From the IMG/VR virus record IMGVR_UViG_3300013285_000597, positions 1 through 20,905 of that record: 20,905 nucleotides of DNA. One strand, written 5' to 3'. This DNA comes from a virus. Position 1 is the stretch's first letter, and each line of letters opens with the position of its first letter. The notes below the pieces were generated by a model. It saw only the letters and a program-made list of their open reading frames with translations. It did not search any database and was not told where the DNA came from. The position numbers and the translations under genes were made by a program. This document shows, one piece after another, positions 14,806-20,128 of the stretch.

Positions 14806-15630
14806 ATGAAAAAATTAATTGTTTTATTATTACTAATAGTATTATCATCTACTGTATTTGCGTGGAATCAACGAGCGCCAAATCCAGTACAAGCATGTCA
14901 AGTACACGCTCCATACGGATTTCCGCAAAGTTCCAAACCTATACAACCTATCTGTCGGCAAGCATATCTAGTGGGATATGATGTAGCAGCTAAATTGCCT
15001 GAGTTTGTAATGTATGAACTTACTCCTTCTAACGCATTGGGCTGTGTAGTAAGAACTAATGCTTTTGCTCCAGATCAATCTATACAGAATGGCGCTACCC
15101 CGGCAGATTATGTGGGAACAAATTATGACAAAGGACACATGGCTCCAGATGGTGATTTATCATGGGATACACAAGTCGAATTTGAATCATTTTTAATGAC
15201 AAATATGAGTCCGCAAGCAGGTTCATTGAATCGCGGTATTTGGAAATTATTAGAAACTTCAGTACGCGGCTGGGCTGTTCAACGTAATCAATCATATACG
15301 ATTATATCGGGTGGGGTATATGGACCAGGTGACAAAACTATTGGCAAAGGTGTAGTTGTGCCGCATGGTTTTTACAAGATTGTTATCAATAATCAAACTA
15401 ATGAAGTTGCCGCATGGGAATTTCCTCATGTGGCACCTTATCCTAATTTAGGAAATGATCTAACTAAATTCCGTGTTTCTATAGCACAGATTATGCAAAC
15501 AGCCGGTGTTAAGTATGCGTTTCCAACCAACGCGGTTGAACTAGCTCCGGGTAAAGAATGGTCAGTAGATTTCGGTAAATTAACACAGGCTAAACGTGCT
15601 AAATGTGGCGCAAATTCCACTGATGACTAA
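14806..15630 (+). CDS. exported DNA/RNA non-specific endonuclease (NucA/EndoG ββα-Me type)
   Basis: A 274-residue predicted secreted nuclease cutting DNA and possibly RNA. A classical signal peptide covers residues 1-19 (MKK, then a Leu/Ile/Val core, ending VFA|W), so it should reach the periplasm or beyond. The NUC1 catalytic motif is present as YDKGHMAP (107-114) with His111 as general base; the family usually has DRGH, here DKGH. The metal-ligand helix fits NMSPQAGSLNRGIW (133-146, Asn142). Four Cys (31, 50, 80, 267) could form disulfides after export. The ATG directly follows the previous stop. An exported nuclease inside a late head and packaging cluster is unusual; it might degrade host or competitor DNA, or act at lysis. 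Confidence 0.85.
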   Translation: MKKLIVLLLLIVLSSTVFAWNQRAPNPVQACQVHAPYGFPQSSKPIQPICRQAYLVGYDVAAKLPEFVMYELTPSNALGCVVRTNAFAPDQSIQNGATPADYVGTNYDKGHMAPDGDLSWDTQVEFESFLMTNMSPQAGSLNRGIWKLLETSVRGWAVQRNQSYTIISGGVYGPGDKTIGKGVVVPHGFYKIVINNQTNEVAAWEFPHVAPYPNLGNDLTKFRVSIAQIMQTAGVKYAFPTNAVELAPGKEWSVDFGKLTQAKRAKCGANSTDD

Positions 15631-15886
15631 ACAATACAGAATTACCACTCAAAACTTAACTCCAACTAGTGATGACGATTGCTTTTTAGAACCAGATGAC
15701 CCAATACATCAGTTATTAATTGCCAGTCATATGGGTGGATTAGGAAGTCAAAAAAAATTAACAGAATACAATAGAATTACTGCCGAACGCCTAAAGTCTA
15801 AAATATCTCCTGAACTTGAATATGCTAAATCAACCGGAATACGGCCGGGAACTCCGGCATGGTATGCGCTGTTTCCTAAAAAGTAA
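15623..15886 (+). CDS. hypothetical small protein upstream of the large terminase
   Basis: An 87-residue protein of unknown function. I start it at ATG 15623 (MTKQYRITTQNL), which overlaps the nuclease gene by 8 nt; an in-frame ATG at 15596 would add nine residues that read like out-of-frame nuclease sequence. The N-terminal third is polar (LTPTSDDDCFLEPDDP), the centre helical (IHQLLIASHMGG), and the C-terminus GIRPGTPAWYALFPKK is aromatic and basic. No known motif is seen. Its position immediately before the terminase suggests a packaging accessory, but nothing more can be supported. Confidence 0.5.
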   Translation: MTKQYRITTQNLTPTSDDDCFLEPDDPIHQLLIASHMGGLGSQKKLTEYNRITAERLKSKISPELEYAKSTGIRPGTPAWYALFPKK

Positions 15887-15896
15887 TGCACTTTAA

Positions 15897-15904
15897 AGTA
15901 AATA
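15897..15904 (+). promoter_or_regulatory. late-promoter-like octamer before terL-N
   Basis: AGTAAATA ends 4 nt before the ATG at 15909; no Shine-Dalgarno sequence follows. A 10-bp palindrome ACTTTAAAGT (15890-15899) overlaps it. Expected transcription would begin at the start codon. Confidence 0.5.
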
Positions 15905-15908
15905 CACC

Positions 15909-16562
15909 ATGGGTTTTGATTCACATTCACTGGCGAAAGCGCCATATAAACAACAGGTATATACTGAGCAACAGCTTCAAGAATTTGCTGCATGTGCTGA
16001 TCCAGTAACTGGACCAGAGTATTTTATGCGTAATTTTTTCTATATCCAACAAACTATTGGTGGTAGAACATTATACAAACCATTTGAATATCAAGTACGG
16101 TTAATTGACACTTATCATAATTACCGTTACTCAATAGCTATGATGCCACGGCAAACTGGTAAGTCAACTTCAGCAGCAGGATATCTACTATGGTATGCGA
16201 TGTTTATACCAGACTCAACAGTTCTAGTTGCTGCTCATAAATTTGACGGTTCACAAGAGATTATGAAGCGTATTCGTTTTGCATATGAGCTATGTCCAGA
16301 TCACATACGCGCGGGAGCCACTAATTATAATCTAGGTTCAATTGATTTTGAGAATGGAAGTCGCATTGTATCAGCAACTACCACAGAAAATACTGGTCGT
16401 GGTATGTCAATATCACTATTATATTGTTTAGACGGCGATACTACGACTGTTAAAATTAGAAATAAACTATCATTAATAGAAGAAGACATTACATTAAAAA
16501 ATTTGTTTATACGACTTCATAAACCTAATACCGTTTTAACTGATGAGTTTGCGTTTGTATAA
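15909..16562 (+). CDS. large terminase N-fragment fused to split-intein N-part (TerL-N + IntN1)
   Basis: First of three genes that together encode the gp17-like packaging motor. Residues 1-172 are the N-terminal ATPase half: Walker A PRQTGKST (80-87), the helix after it, and the strand-loop ENTGRGMSISLLY that leads into Walker B. At Cys173 the terminase sequence stops and an intein begins: CLDGDTTTVKIRN (block A, catalytic Cys1), continuing to about residue 205 (LKNLFIRLHK). The last residues, TDEFAFV, resemble the terminase sequence found after the intein (CDEFAYV) and precede TAA. Alone this fragment lacks Walker B and the nuclease domain, so it needs trans-splicing with the product of 17426-18169. 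The start has a late-promoter-like motif 4 nt upstream. Confidence 0.9.
   Translation: MGFDSHSLAKAPYKQQVYTEQQLQEFAACADPVTGPEYFMRNFFYIQQTIGGRTLYKPFEYQVRLIDTYHNYRYSIAMMPRQTGKSTSAAGYLLWYAMFIPDSTVLVAAHKFDGSQEIMKRIRFAYELCPDHIRAGATNYNLGSIDFENGSRIVSATTTENTGRGMSISLLYCLDGDTTTVKIRNKLSLIEEDITLKNLFIRLHKPNTVLTDEFAFV
16425..16559 (+). other. split intein 1, N-terminal part (IntN1)
   Basis: 45 codons from Cys173 of the upstream ORF to its last residue. CLDGDT at the start is a typical block A. The functional part is probably about 33 residues; the tail PNTVLTDEFAFV lies beyond the usual end of such short IntN pieces. The break comes before block B, as in the atypically split AceL-TerL intein (25-residue IntN), not at the common endonuclease-domain site. 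Confidence 0.85.
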
Positions 16563-16565
16563 ATA
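16558..16565 (+). promoter_or_regulatory. perfect T4 late promoter octamer before endonuclease 1
   Basis: TATAAATA, identical to the T4 late consensus, overlaps the terL-N stop codon (16560-16562) and ends 4 nt before the ATG at 16570. It could drive a leaderless mRNA for endonuclease 1 and the IntC1/TerL-M gene behind it. Confidence 0.55.
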
Positions 16566-16569
16566 GAAT

Positions 16570-17448
16570 ATGAACCCTAAACTTTTAAAATTTATCAAAA
16601 GAAATAAAAAACGAAATGCTGATTTATATAAATTTGGGCTAGTAGAAGGACATGATTATGTGGTTTGTCCTATTAGTGGAGAACGATTAAGTCACATTAA
16701 AAATAATTATATAGTTAAAGTATTAGGAATGAGCATTGATGACTATCCTAATGTGCAAAGAGTAAGTAAACGCCGCATTGATAATATTAAAGATGGTCTT
16801 AAACAGATTGATCTAGTCACGGGTCTTACAAAATATGAAGCTGGTCAAATTGAAGCAAGAAAAACATTAAAACAAATTGATTCATTTGGTTTATCAGGGT
16901 ACGAAAAAAAAGGTCAAAAAACTCGTGCAACGCATATGACCAAAATTGATGAATTGGGTAGAAATGGATACGCACAAATAGCAGCACATGCTATCATTAA
17001 AGGAAATATTACTAAAGCCAATAAAGGTTTAATATCATTGAATCGTAATGAATACAAACGATATAAACTAATTGTTATCTATTTGACAGAAAAATTACGA
17101 AAAAAAATAACGGCTGGATTTATTACAGGCTTATCTGGTAAATCACATGCATGGCATATAGATCATAAATTTTCAATTTTAGAAGGCTATAAACAAAAAA
17201 TAAGCCCATTGGTAATTGGCAATATTAATAATTTAGAAATGTTACCGTGGAAAGAAAATTTAAAAAAACATTCAGGATGTAGTATTGATTTAGGTGATTT
17301 GTTACAAAATTGTGGATATTCAATTGATGATTCACAAAAAGAATTTGATATTTTTACAAAATTAATTCACGAAGACATATCAAATAATATTCCTCCTAAC
17401 GGAGCATTTTTGATAGAGAGGTTTTATGAATCAAATTTACGCGCCTAA
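16570..17448 (+). CDS. free-standing homing endonuclease 1 (HNH-like) between intein halves
   Basis: A 292-residue predicted homing endonuclease lying exactly between IntN1 and IntC1, the arrangement known from fractured genes with split inteins. The N-terminal part has a short Cys-containing segment (CPISGERLSHIKNNYIVKVL, 33-52). Next comes a repeated DNA-binding-like unit: KQIDSFGLSGYEKKG (101-115) and TKIDELGRNGYAQIA (124-138), sharing ID-x-x-G-x-x-GY. The C-terminal catalytic part, AWHIDHKFSILEGYK (194-208), IGNINNLEMLP (216-226) and KENLKKH (228-234), fits an HNH ββα-metal core with H196/D198/H199, N221 and N230. It starts 7 nt after the terL-N stop and overlaps the IntC1 gene by 23 nt in the +1 frame. 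The cut site is presumably the uninterrupted Walker B sequence of terL. Confidence 0.82.
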   Translation: MNPKLLKFIKRNKKRNADLYKFGLVEGHDYVVCPISGERLSHIKNNYIVKVLGMSIDDYPNVQRVSKRRIDNIKDGLKQIDLVTGLTKYEAGQIEARKTLKQIDSFGLSGYEKKGQKTRATHMTKIDELGRNGYAQIAAHAIIKGNITKANKGLISLNRNEYKRYKLIVIYLTEKLRKKITAGFITGLSGKSHAWHIDHKFSILEGYKQKISPLVIGNINNLEMLPWKENLKKHSGCSIDLGDLLQNCGYSIDDSQKEFDIFTKLIHEDISNNIPPNGAFLIERFYESNLRA

Positions 17449-17761
17449 TGAAGAATATGAAATCTTAACTCCAAATGGATGGGAAGATTTTGAGGGAATA
17501 TTTTTAAATGAAAATGCAAATAAGCCATCAACGAAGATAATATTCACTGATGGCACTTTTATTATTGCCACCAATGATCATAGATTTTTTAATAATAAAA
17601 AAGAAATTAAAGTTATTGATTTAGTTGTTGGCAATGAATTAGATTCTCAGTATGGAAAAATAAAAATTTCAAATTTAGAAAAAATTTCATTAGTAAATAC
17701 ATACGAAATTTTTAATGCGACCAATCATGTTATTATTGCAAATAAGATTTATTCTCATCAA
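17426..17761 (+). other. split intein 1, C-terminal part (IntC1)
   Basis: 112 codons containing blocks B, F and G; the AceL-TerL IntC is of similar size and has the same TPNG/SPNG-x-x-x-F-x-G-I opening. The C-terminus is His-Gln followed by extein Cys. Most inteins end in Asn, and Gln is a known but uncommon variant for the cyclising residue. Confidence 0.85.
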
Positions 17762-18169
17762 TGCGATGAATTTGCATATGTACGTCCTAACGTAGCCCAA
17801 GAATTCTGGGCTTCAATTAGTCCTACATTAGCAACTGGTGGATCAGCTATCATTACCTCAACACCAAATAGTGACGAAGATCAATTTGCGCTATTGTGGA
17901 AAGGCGCCAATAAAATGGAAGATAGCCATGGTAATCCACAAGAATTAGGTATAAACGGATTTAAAGCATTCCGTAGTTATTGGCGCGAACATCCTGATAG
18001 AGATGATGCATGGGCTTCAGCTATGCGAGCGCAACTTGGTGAAGATCAATTCCGTAGGGAAATGGATTGTTTGGGCAGCGAAGCATTGCTAACATTACGA
18101 GATAAATCAGGAAAAGTGTTCACTAGTACTATTGGCGAACTTGAAACAATTTTAAAGTGTTATACATAA
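17426..18169 (+). CDS. split-intein C-part, terminase middle fragment and second IntN (IntC1 + TerL-M + IntN2)
   Basis: The central piece of the fractured terminase, 247 residues with a split intein at each end. Residues 1-112 are IntC1: TPNGWEDFEGI, block B ATNDHRF (48-54, T49 and H52), block F around NTYEIFNATNH (His101), ending IYSHQ. Residues 113-214 are terminase: CDEFAYVRP (113-121) completes Walker B with Cys113 as the +1 nucleophile, then ITSTPNSDEDQF (coupling motif) up to EDQFRREMD. Residues 215-247 are IntN2, starting CLGSEALLTLRD. The start ATG has AGAGAGG 4 nt upstream and lies inside the end of endonuclease 1. The product must be spliced on both sides; order of the two reactions is not fixed by the sequence. 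Confidence 0.9.
   Translation: MNQIYAPNEEYEILTPNGWEDFEGIFLNENANKPSTKIIFTDGTFIIATNDHRFFNNKKEIKVIDLVVGNELDSQYGKIKISNLEKISLVNTYEIFNATNHVIIANKIYSHQCDEFAYVRPNVAQEFWASISPTLATGGSAIITSTPNSDEDQFALLWKGANKMEDSHGNPQELGINGFKAFRSYWREHPDRDDAWASAMRAQLGEDQFRREMDCLGSEALLTLRDKSGKVFTSTIGELETILKCYT
18068..18166 (+). other. split intein 2, N-terminal part (IntN2)
   Basis: 33 codons beginning at Cys215 of the middle terminase ORF: CLGSEALLTLRDKSGKVF, then a short helix (TIGELETIL) and stop. Like IntN1 it is very short, and the break precedes block B. The sequence is clearly different from IntN1 beyond the initial Cys-Leu, which should help the two inteins avoid mispairing. Confidence 0.82.
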
Positions 18170-18172
18170 TAA

Positions 18173-18180
18173 ACTAAATA
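18173..18180 (+). promoter_or_regulatory. late-promoter-like octamer before endonuclease 2
   Basis: ACTAAATA follows the terL-M stop by 3 nt and ends exactly 5 nt before the ATG at 18186, with no Shine-Dalgarno sequence. The geometry matches that of the octamers at 8831, 19786 and 2485(-). Confidence 0.5.
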
Positions 18181-18185
18181 ATAAT

Positions 18186-18734
18186 ATGCGTAAACATATA
18201 ATTCACAATCATCATATTATACCCCGTCATGCCGGTGGAACAAACGAACCCAGTAATTTAATAAAGCTTACTGTAGAAGAACATGCAGAAGCACATAAAA
18301 CTCTGTATGAACAATATGGGTGTTTAGAAGATAAGTTAGCTTGGAAAGGGTTATCAGGGTTAATGGATACAGCAGAGATTATTCATACATTACAATCGGA
18401 AGGTATGAGAGGTGAAAAAAATCCTATGTACGGCAAAGCAGCACCCAATCGTGGAACAAAACGGCCTGGTATTGGAGGTCGTAAAAAAGGGACAGTATGG
18501 TCAGCAGAAGAACGACGAACTAAAGAATTAATGCGAGAAACTGAAGAACATAAAGATAAGATGAGATTAGTTTATGCTGATCCTAAACGCAACAGAAAAA
18601 TAAGTGAAGGCAAAAAAGGTAGTGTGGGCGCAGCAAAAAATAAAAGATGGTTTAATAATGCCACCTATGAAAAATATTATACTATAGGCGAAGAGCCAGA
18701 AGGGTGGACTCGTGGCAGACTTAGTAGAAAATAA
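18186..18734 (+). CDS. free-standing homing endonuclease 2 (N-terminal HNH, NUMOD3-like) between intein halves
   Basis: A 182-residue HNH endonuclease in the gap between IntN2 and IntC2. The catalytic HNH core is at the very N-terminus: HHIIPRHAGGTNEPSNLIKL (9-28) then EEHAEAH (31-37), giving H9/H10, N24 and H33/H37. It is followed by a NUMOD3-like DNA-binding motif, NPMYGK (79-84), a basic region, and a C-terminal W-F-N-N ... PEGWTRGR segment common in such phage HNH proteins. It is unrelated in layout to endonuclease 1, so the two fractures were probably invaded independently. It begins 16 nt after the terL-M stop and overlaps the IntC2 gene by 23 nt. The probable target is intein-free terL at the ATPase-nuclease junction. 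Confidence 0.85.
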   Translation: MRKHIIHNHHIIPRHAGGTNEPSNLIKLTVEEHAEAHKTLYEQYGCLEDKLAWKGLSGLMDTAEIIHTLQSEGMRGEKNPMYGKAAPNRGTKRPGIGGRKKGTVWSAEERRTKELMRETEEHKDKMRLVYADPKRNRKISEGKKGSVGAAKNKRWFNNATYEKYYTIGEEPEGWTRGRLSRK

Positions 18735-19044
18735 GTTAGGATTAGAAGTATTAACTGATACTGGTTGGAGTAAATTTGAAGGTGTGCTCAATAAAGGTCG
18801 GCGACAAATTGCTGAAATACAACTAACAAATACAACTATTAAAGCAACACTTGATCATGATATATTTACATCTTTATTATCAAAACTAACAGTAAAAAAA
18901 TTACGGCCTGGTATGAAAATTTATACCAATACGGGAATACAACGAGTAGTTAGAGTTAATCTAGCGGGAACAGAACAAGTTTACGATTTACTAAATGTTG
19001 AAAAAAATCGTCGCTTTTATGCCAATGACATTCTGTGTTCAAAT
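18712..19044 (+). other. split intein 2, C-terminal part (IntC2)
   Basis: 111 codons with blocks B, F and G. Two usually conserved positions differ: the block F His is replaced (NRRF) and the residue before the terminal Asn is Ser (C-S-N) rather than His. The terminal Asn and +1 Cys are intact. Splicing without the penultimate His is known for some inteins but is often slower. Confidence 0.83.
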
Positions 19045-19785
19045 TGTGAATTCATTATTAACGATGAAACACTAATAGCGCCTGCTAAATTGATAGATTT
19101 AGAGGGTATTGAGCCAATACATCGTACTGCACAAGTACGATGGTATAAACAACCACAGGCTGGTAAAATGTATTGTGTAGGACTTGATCCATCATTGGGA
19201 ACAGGCGGTGATCCTGCCGCTATACAAATTTTTGAAGCTAATACTACAGAGCAAGTTGGTGAGTGGAAGCACAATAGAACACCTATTCCTGAACAAGTAC
19301 GCATACTTGCTGACATTATAAAATACATTTACAGTTTTACTAAGGACGAGCAATCAATATACTATTCGGTTGAAAACAACACAATTGGAGAAGCAGCACT
19401 TATATCAATAGAACAGTTTGGAGAAGAAAATATTAAAGGTTATTTTCTGTCAGATCCCACCAGAGGCGCGGGTAGATACCGAAAAGGATTTAATACTAGC
19501 CCTAAAAATAAACTAACTGCATGTGCTAAGTTAAAAACTCTGATAGAAACAAATAAGATGAAGATAAAAAGTCGTCCTCTAATTTCTGAACTTAAAACAT
19601 TTGTGGCAAATGGCGTTAGTTATGAAGCGAAACAAGGGTCAACCGACGATTTAGTCATGGCTACATTGTTAGTTACTCGCATGATGATACTGTTACAGAC
19701 ATATCATCCAGAGATGGATACCCAGATGCGAGATCATGGAGAAAATATTCTTCCTCCTCTTCCATTCATTGCCACGATGTATTAA
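18712..19785 (+). CDS. split-intein C-part and terminase nuclease domain (IntC2 + TerL-C)
   Basis: The third terminase gene, 357 residues. Residues 1-111 are IntC2: LTDTGWSKFEGV, block B ATLDHDIF (45-52, His49), block F QVYDLLNVEKNRRFYAND and C-terminus CSN. Cys112 is the +1 nucleophile and begins the terminase part CEFIINDETLIAP. The RNase H-like nuclease domain has its acidic residues: Asp159 (VGLDPSLGTGGD), Glu221 (SVENNTIGEAAL) and Asp312/313 (STDDLVMATLL). The start is GTG at 18712, with AGAAGG about 8 nt upstream; no ATG exists near the beginning of the intein, and this start lies inside the end of endonuclease 2. After splicing the terminase would be 172+102+246 = 520 residues, normal for TerL. 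Confidence 0.9.
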   Translation: MADLVENKLGLEVLTDTGWSKFEGVLNKGRRQIAEIQLTNTTIKATLDHDIFTSLLSKLTVKKLRPGMKIYTNTGIQRVVRVNLAGTEQVYDLLNVEKNRRFYANDILCSNCEFIINDETLIAPAKLIDLEGIEPIHRTAQVRWYKQPQAGKMYCVGLDPSLGTGGDPAAIQIFEANTTEQVGEWKHNRTPIPEQVRILADIIKYIYSFTKDEQSIYYSVENNTIGEAALISIEQFGEENIKGYFLSDPTRGAGRYRKGFNTSPKNKLTACAKLKTLIETNKMKIKSRPLISELKTFVANGVSYEAKQGSTDDLVMATLLVTRMMILLQTYHPEMDTQMRDHGENILPPLPFIATMY

Positions 19786-19793
19786 CATAAATA
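19786..19793 (+). promoter_or_regulatory. late-promoter-like octamer
   Basis: CATAAATA begins right after the terL-C stop codon and ends 5 nt before the ATG at 19799, without a Shine-Dalgarno sequence; the octamer and spacing are the same as at the minus-strand gene starting at 2479. Confidence 0.5.
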
Positions 19794-19798
19794 ATACT

Positions 19799-20128
19799 AT
19801 GAACATAAAAGACATAATTGGCGAAAGCTCGACATTTAATGTGCAAACAATGAATGTTATCGTTGTTGGCAATGAAAAAGAAGCCAGCCAAGTAGTCAAT
19901 CCTGGTGTAAAATATGACAAAAATGGAAAATCTAAATGGAGCCCTCCGTTACAACAGCAATTAGATGTAATGAAAGATGCGGTTGGTCCATCCGCAGATG
20001 ATGTAATTAATGAACCAACTGAAGATGAAGTAGAGGAACTTCAAGTTGATGACAGTGATGCCAGTATTAATCGTATCAAAAAATTAGCAGCTATCTTTTC
20101 ACCATCTACTACTTTCCCATCGGGATAA
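19799..20128 (+). CDS. hypothetical acidic protein with CTS-like N-terminus
   Basis: A 109-residue protein of unknown function. I start it at ATG 19799 (MNIKDIIGESSTF) rather than at the in-frame ATG 19736, because the extra residues would lie inside the terL-C gene and the octamer at 19786 places transcription at 19799. The first nine residues contain I-G-E, matching the (I/L)-x-E end of a T4-type capsid-targeting sequence. The body has a strand-like TMNVIVVGNEKEAS, then KWSPPLQQQLDVMKDAVGPS, then an acidic disordered-looking part. An internal head or packaging-related role is inferred from the N-terminus and location. Confidence 0.55.
   Translation: MNIKDIIGESSTFNVQTMNVIVVGNEKEASQVVNPGVKYDKNGKSKWSPPLQQQLDVMKDAVGPSADDVINEPTEDEVEELQVDDSDASINRIKKLAAIFSPSTTFPSG

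Follow-up and report, generated by a model that had tools for sequence, protein, structure and literature searches.

We report that the gene for the large terminase subunit (TerL) of a T4-type virus is, in all likelihood, fractured twice by two different trans-splicing inteins, with an endonuclease gene lodged in each of the two gaps. The locus consists of five plus-strand genes, which overlap or lie close together, at 15909-19785 of the IMG/VR virus record IMGVR_UViG_3300013285_000597, whose 20,905 bases (positions 1 to 20,905), hereafter the window, were analyzed as a whole and also encode T4-type structural proteins (sheath, tubes, and head closure). Exact empty alleles of both insertion sites and cis versions of both inteins occur in relatives, and the catalytic residues are conserved. 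The features are listed below, where E1 to E3 are the terminase exteins, IntN and IntC the N- and C-terminal halves of each split intein, HEN1 and HEN2 the genes in the gaps at sites 1 and 2, and L numbers related loci.

15909-16562, plus strand: gene 1, E1 of 172 residues followed by IntN1 (CLDGDTTTVKIRNK...), 45 residues to the stop
15909-16424, plus strand: TerL extein E1, 172 residues, with Walker A motif PRQTGKST, stopping just short of the Walker B acidic pair
16425-16559, plus strand: IntN1, N-terminal half of split intein 1, with Cys1; cis homologue in L089/L090
16540-16558, plus strand: homing-site mimic and putative operator CTGATGAGTTTGCGTTTGT, copying the 5' end of E2
16558-16565, plus strand: late-promoter-like box TATAAATA, immediately before HEN1
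16570-17448, plus strand: HEN1, putative HNH-like homing endonuclease, 292 residues, HIDH motif, phrog_5104 family (function unknown)
17426-18169, plus strand: gene 2, IntC1 of 112 residues, E2 of 102 and IntN2 of 33
17426-17761, plus strand: IntC1, 112 residues, block B TNDH, C-terminal His-Gln
17762-18067, plus strand: TerL extein E2, 102 residues, opening with the +1 Cys and the Walker B DE pair
18068-18166, plus strand: IntN2, 33 residues, N-terminal half of split intein 2, fused to an IntC2 homologue in L032 and L107
18175-18180, plus strand: TAAATA promoter-like box before HEN2; a site-2 mimic is not recognizable in the window
18186-18734, plus strand: HEN2, predicted HNH homing endonuclease, 182 residues, phrog_655 match
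18712-19785, plus strand: gene 3, GTG start, IntC2 of 111 residues and E3 of 246, stop codon at 19783-19785
18712-19044, plus strand: IntC2, 111 residues, GTG start, block B TLDH, C-terminal Ser-Asn
19045-19782, plus strand: TerL extein E3, 246 residues, +1 Cys, RNase H-like nuclease domain, PF17289

Each endonuclease reading frame overlaps the start codon of the following IntC by 23 nucleotides, an arrangement that recurs in relatives.

The original prediction described a TerL encoded by three genes whose exteins (172, 102, and 246 residues) join into a continuous protein of 520 residues, and the alignments bear this out. The joined protein is 97.3% identical over 520 residues to the uninterrupted TerL of a close relative, L002 (98% for E1 alone), and both joints are residue-identical to it (SLLY/CDEFAYV and RREMD/CEFIIND), so that the gaps or duplicated residues named beforehand as the sign of a mistaken reading are absent. 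Translated searches with E1, E2, and E3 (tblastn) give matches on L002 that abut exactly at 1117/1118 and 1423/1424 within a single open reading frame. The intein-free alleles that were to be sought in related contigs thus exist, and most other relatives whose E3 is 67-97% identical are likewise uninterrupted at both sites. The intact relative aligns continuously over residues 8-483 with T4 gp17 (PDB 3ezk, E=8e-46), across both joints, and the gp17 structures 3ezk and 3cpe match it at E about 1e-45. The protein has the Walker A/B ATPase and the RNase H-like nuclease of a T4-type large terminase, with matches to PF03237 and PF17289, and the host gene becomes continuous once the exteins are joined, as in a fractured gene with known empty alleles. 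Site 1 splits the Walker B motif just before its acidic pair, and site 2 falls between the ATPase and nuclease domains.

The two split inteins are distinct, as predicted. IntC1 and IntC2 share 28% identity and are homologous by profile comparison. The IntC1 profile matches the gp41-1 intein (8e-6) and CatC (3e-5) in the PDB, and that of IntC2 matches VidaL (E=3e-11), DnaX, CatC, and gp41-1 (range 3e-11 to 4e-10). Both are split atypically, into 39-45 and 112 residues (intein 1) and 33 and 111 residues (intein 2); IntN1 has about 39 residues in relatives and 45 in the window, where an element upstream of HEN1 is read in frame. Intein 1 is found in cis in L089/L090 and L220, and intein 2 in L032 and L107 (132 and 143 residues). 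The model of the L032 cis intein 2 adopts a HINT fold with a predicted local distance difference test score (pLDDT) of 95.6, and its first PDB match is VidaL (E=1e-9, template modeling score 0.87); this fold model covers cis intein 2, while the support for intein 1 comes from the matches of the IntC1 profile to intein structures. The residues of class 1 split inteins are present and conserved across loci, namely Cys1, block B TNDH (intein 1) or TLDH (intein 2), and Cys+1. The C-terminal chemistry differs: the last residue is Gln in intein 1 and Asn in intein 2, which lacks the usual penultimate His. Cys occupies position 1 in 35/36 site-1 and 53/53 site-2 loci (88/89 occupied loci). Furthermore, the +1 residue of site 1 is Cys in 35/36 occupied alleles versus 41/98 empty ones, a bias that fits a splicing constraint.

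In L089/L090, around positions 800-880, the cis intein 1 carries a 16-bp palindromic linker where split relatives carry an endonuclease. The cis intein of L089 looks like a re-fused split intein, because it resembles the split intein of L091 and retains the IntC start methionine.

These intein features also bear on two other ways in which the pieces could yield a working motor. The pieces might never be ligated and instead assemble non-covalently as separate subunits, as has been described for a ribonucleotide reductase whose gene is interrupted by a homing endonuclease gene (case cited in PMC10448857); we regard this as very improbable, since the intein halves borne by the pieces have conserved splice residues, site 1 interrupts Walker B, and relatives have the same inteins in cis. 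Removal of the inserts at the RNA level, as group I or group II introns, has precedents in the endonuclease-bearing introns of T4-like phages and in the spliced terL of phage ICP1. Introns were nevertheless rejected, with a residual probability that is practically negligible: an Rfam search of 15600-20000 gave no match at E<=0.5, the HINT fold and intein motifs are present, and the cis forms are open in frame.

A free-standing gene of endonuclease type occupies both gaps, and the prediction that each holds a homing endonuclease stands more firmly for one than for the other. HEN2 matches the homing endonuclease family phrog_655 (E=6e-13), with a PF01844 match (E=0.003) below the cut-off. HEN1 is assigned by its motif, HIDH...NLxMIPWxxN, and by distant phage relatives, a few of which are annotated as endonucleases; its homologues occupy the site-1 gap of relatives. 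Across loci the gap enzymes vary and include the HEN1 family, HNH-NUMOD3, GIY-YIG-NUMOD3, a DUF7487 protein, an MTES_1575-like nuclease, or none. No host is assigned, because a single-protein scan of viral contigs with HEN1 and a scan of bacterial genome contigs with the IntC1 profile both gave no matches.

To place the window among its relatives, 167 distinct TerL loci were classed after duplicate removal at three known sites (Walker A, site 1, and site 2). The loci were fetched through intein, endonuclease, and TerL searches, so their proportions are not population frequencies; a site was called split when the gap held an in-frame stop or a frame change, and open reading frames were read for key loci only. 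Fifty-one of the 167 loci are empty at all three sites, 35 are split at site 2 only, and 12 at site 1 only. Eight are split at sites 1 and 2 with an empty Walker A site (the window, L095, L101, L205, L210, L219, L231, and L287). A cis insert at Walker A accompanies a split site 1 in five loci, and in one (L087) a cis Walker A intein accompanies splits at sites 1 and 2. Two loci (L290 and L296) are split at all three sites, giving a four-gene terminase, and the remainder either combine these states in other ways or are interrupted by contig ends. The alleles form a nested series: empty (L002), occupied at site 2 only (L003), split at site 1 with site 2 in cis (L032), in cis at site 1 (L089, L220) or site 2 (L107), and split at both (the window, L095, L101, and others).

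This recurrence argues against an assembly chimera or a frameshift artefact. The contig is metagenomic, but a site-2 insert of equal length (977 bp) is found in L003 and L102/L116, homologous site-1 inserts are found in many contigs, and the frames are intact, which leaves an artefact a next to negligible prospect. A decaying pseudogene, with the terminase broken and either another copy present or the phage defective, would be consistent with a single contig of unknown completeness and with the diverged second TerL ATPase copy found upstream in some relatives. We consider it highly improbable, as the ratio of nonsynonymous to synonymous substitution rates (dN/dS) is 0.01-0.04 in the exteins and 0.09-0.17 in IntC2 and HEN2, the same architecture occurs in independent lineages (about 50-60% identity), and a cultured phage, SCTP-2, has a scattered TerL. 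The second copies, about 30% identical ATPase-domain genes, lie directly upstream of the intein-bearing TerL in L088 (2283-3101), L093, L094, and L096.

Two trans-splicing steps on the terminase appear compatible with infection, because the cultured Salicola phage SCTP-2 (GenBank MF360958) encodes TerL in three genes, gp534, gp267, and gp224, for which we likewise infer splicing. There, gp534 bears the Walker A IntN, gp267 consists of IntC, E1b, and IntN1, and gp224 consists of IntC1, an E2 that carries a cis intein, and E3. As in the window, the three genes bear split-intein halves, and a HEN1 homologue adjoins the third piece (gp224). In contrast to the window, the pieces are dispersed over both strands at distances of tens to hundreds of kb (at most about 210 kb), the breaks are at Walker A and site 1, and there is the additional cis intein inside E2. 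Two further cultured phages have a split-intein TerL: in Campylobacter phage Los1 (KX879627) about 24 kb separate the N-terminal piece from IntC-E2-E3, and in Serratia phage 92A1 (OR088902) the fracture is at site 2, where a GIY-YIG-like gene fills the gap.

Comparison of the window with L003 reveals purifying selection and recent movement at site 2. The dN/dS values are 0.01 for E1, 0.04 for E2, 0.03 for E3, 0.17 for HEN2, and 0.09 for IntC2. The synonymous divergence (dS) is 0.66-0.84 in the exteins, 0.46 in IntC2, and 0.08-0.09 in IntN2 and HEN2. Because of this low dS and of a tract of 97-99% identity that begins at the E2/IntN2 joint and fades within IntC2, the IntN2-HEN2 cassette must have moved laterally and recently, apparently into or between pre-existing inteins.

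The DNA upstream of the endonuclease genes suggests how they may be controlled. Gene 1 ends in TDEFAFV, imitating the CDEFAYV with which E2 starts, and this peptide is the in-frame reading of a DNA element before HEN1. Nearly all site-1 loci carry TGAYRARTTYGCATTYG-TATAAATA upstream of HEN1, in which the TGAYRARTTYGCATTYG side copies the right flank of the TerL insertion site and the TATAAATA side is a T4-type late-promoter box; in most relatives the element lies after a stop or out of frame. Over 23 site-1 loci, similarity to the local target reaches its maximum at one register (70% identity, z=10.9; all z-scores compare registers within the same loci and are uncorrected for kinship among loci). 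The element is conserved at 77% between loci versus 41-44% in the flanks, matches the target at 11-17 of 19 nucleotides, and has mismatches of 6%, 4%, and 53% at codon positions 1, 2, and 3; in the window the site-1 mimic is clear (local alignment p=0.007). Over 41 site-2 loci there is an independent mimic of that site's own right flank (z=8.6), which is strong when anchored on the left junction and weak when anchored on the TAAATA box because the spacing varies. Left-flank and cross-site controls gave far lower peaks (z at most 5.4). A best-18-mer test is weak for individual loci, and it is the register test over many loci that is decisive. No mimic was found at the Walker A site in L021, L229, and L296, or by eye in Serratia phage 92A1 and SCTP-2.

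The TAAATA box itself is widespread. It stands 4-7 nucleotides before the start codon of 239/990 open reading frames of at least 150 residues in related loci, compared with 14 matches in all in one internal 40-nucleotide control stretch per frame, and in the window it precedes the starts at 15909, 16570, 18186, and 19800. This distribution suggests that in this phage group the boxes act as late promoters whose transcripts have little or no leader.

We judge the chance to be even, or very slightly better, that the target-like element of HEN1, and of most site-2 endonucleases of relatives, acts as an operator, with the endonuclease repressing the promoter of its own gene. The analogy is with T4 I-TevI, in which 15/20 nucleotides of the homing site overlap the late promoter and mediate autorepression (PMC2988022). 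The likeness lies in a homing-site copy placed at the promoter of the endonuclease, the mimic and the box being the putative counterparts here. The differences are that the endonucleases sit in split inteins rather than group I introns, and that two TerL sites and both HNH-like and GIY-YIG enzymes are involved, with binding putative. The main rival, to which we give somewhat less than an even chance and which is not mutually exclusive with an operator, is that the mimic is a mere fossil of the endonuclease's entry into the intein by cleavage at a target-like sequence. Exon-like flanks have been proposed for the I-TevI reading frame, and the truncated or shortened inserts of L087 and L226 retain the mimic, with a decayed version in L083. 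A fossil accords less well with conservation far above that of the flanking DNA, with the fixed spacing to the promoter box at site 1, and with the absence of the mimic from cis alleles and several endonuclease-less alleles.

Under the favored interpretation, the three terminase pieces would be translated separately, and two protein trans-splicing reactions would then restore the 520-residue motor, intein 1 joining within Walker B and intein 2 joining the ATPase to the nuclease domain. Infectivity would presumably require both reactions. In each intein, a selfish endonuclease gene fills the space between IntN and IntC, runs into the IntC start and carries a late-promoter-like TAAATA box of its own. 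The enzyme would cut alleles without the cassette, recombination would copy the cassette in, and by binding the target mimic the endonuclease may repress its own promoter, as I-TevI does.

Several observations weigh against this interpretation in whole or in part. We infer splicing, cleavage, and homing at this locus from sequence, and the window is a 20.9-kb contig, so that an intact extra TerL may lie elsewhere in the genome. HEN1 matches no Pfam family, and its AlphaFold model is poor (pLDDT 51.5), for which reason it was dropped from the fold search. The aligned HEN1 relatives are only 53-60% identical, and recent movement is shown for site 2 only, because the site-1 insert has no close relative of the kind available at site 2. 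The +1 Cys bias at site 1 could partly mirror a target preference of the endonuclease. For the putative operator, the argument is drawn from sequence similarity and position, and at site 2 of the window itself no mimic is detectable (local alignment p=0.33).

Neither fractured genes nor atypically split TerL inteins are new. The terminase inteins AceL-TerL, GOS-TerL, and Cat-TerL are split after 25-37 residues and have an IntC of 104-115 residues (PMC11766414). The inteins of the window share the atypical split, and the profiles of IntC1 and IntC2 both match the CatC structure, that of IntC2 also VidaL; they differ from those systems in sharing a single terminase, in the terminal Gln of intein 1 and the missing penultimate His of intein 2, and in both having cis alleles in relatives. 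Mycobacteriophage TerL inteins are likewise inserted in the ATPase domain, including the Walker A and Walker B sites (PMC5050341), but the text of that report makes no mention of split inteins, and there is no gap-borne endonuclease gene. The present locus also resembles the fractured genes of Dassa and colleagues (2009), in that a split intein breaks a conserved phage enzyme gene and a free-standing endonuclease gene occupies the gap. Each of those loci is reportedly broken in two, whereas here two different inteins divide one gene into three (in L290 and L296, three different inteins divide it into four). A limited literature search found no terminase in three or four pieces, no cis/trans allele series, and no target-copying promoters. 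The arrangement, in the original view not a standard one, is not unique: it recurs in other contigs, alongside four-piece and scattered versions.

Two other nuclease genes lie in the window. A free-standing GIY-YIG-type endonuclease (weak PF01541) is predicted at 1520-2479 on the minus strand, upstream of the tail sheath gene, and the gene at 14806-15630, just before the terminase, is predicted to encode a DNA/RNA non-specific endonuclease (PF01223, E=7e-39), apparently with a signal peptide; similar-looking genes occur at the same place in L021 and L105.

Beyond the single locus, we give an even chance to a broader picture, in which TerL of a large, mostly uncultivated group of T4-type phages is a hotspot: several endonuclease families would have entered its inteins independently of one another and divided the gene into 2-4 pieces, and operators copied from the target would let HNH-like and GIY-YIG enzymes repress themselves. 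If so, the control logic of I-TevI would extend to split inteins, and the repeated fracture of an essential gene without harmful endonuclease expression would be explained. The target-mimicking upstream elements would suggest a general rule, that endonucleases tame themselves on entering an essential gene. An essential motor in three pieces, or four in relatives, would be an extreme of natural protein trans-splicing and a source of naturally co-occurring split inteins, with IntN halves of 33-39 residues, that ought not to cross-react. The allele series, from empty through cis to split with an endonuclease and split with the endonuclease lost, makes the origin of split inteins directly traceable, including the apparent re-fusion in L089. 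Collectively, relatives with none to three breaks suggest that mobile elements can dismantle an essential gene while the virus survives.

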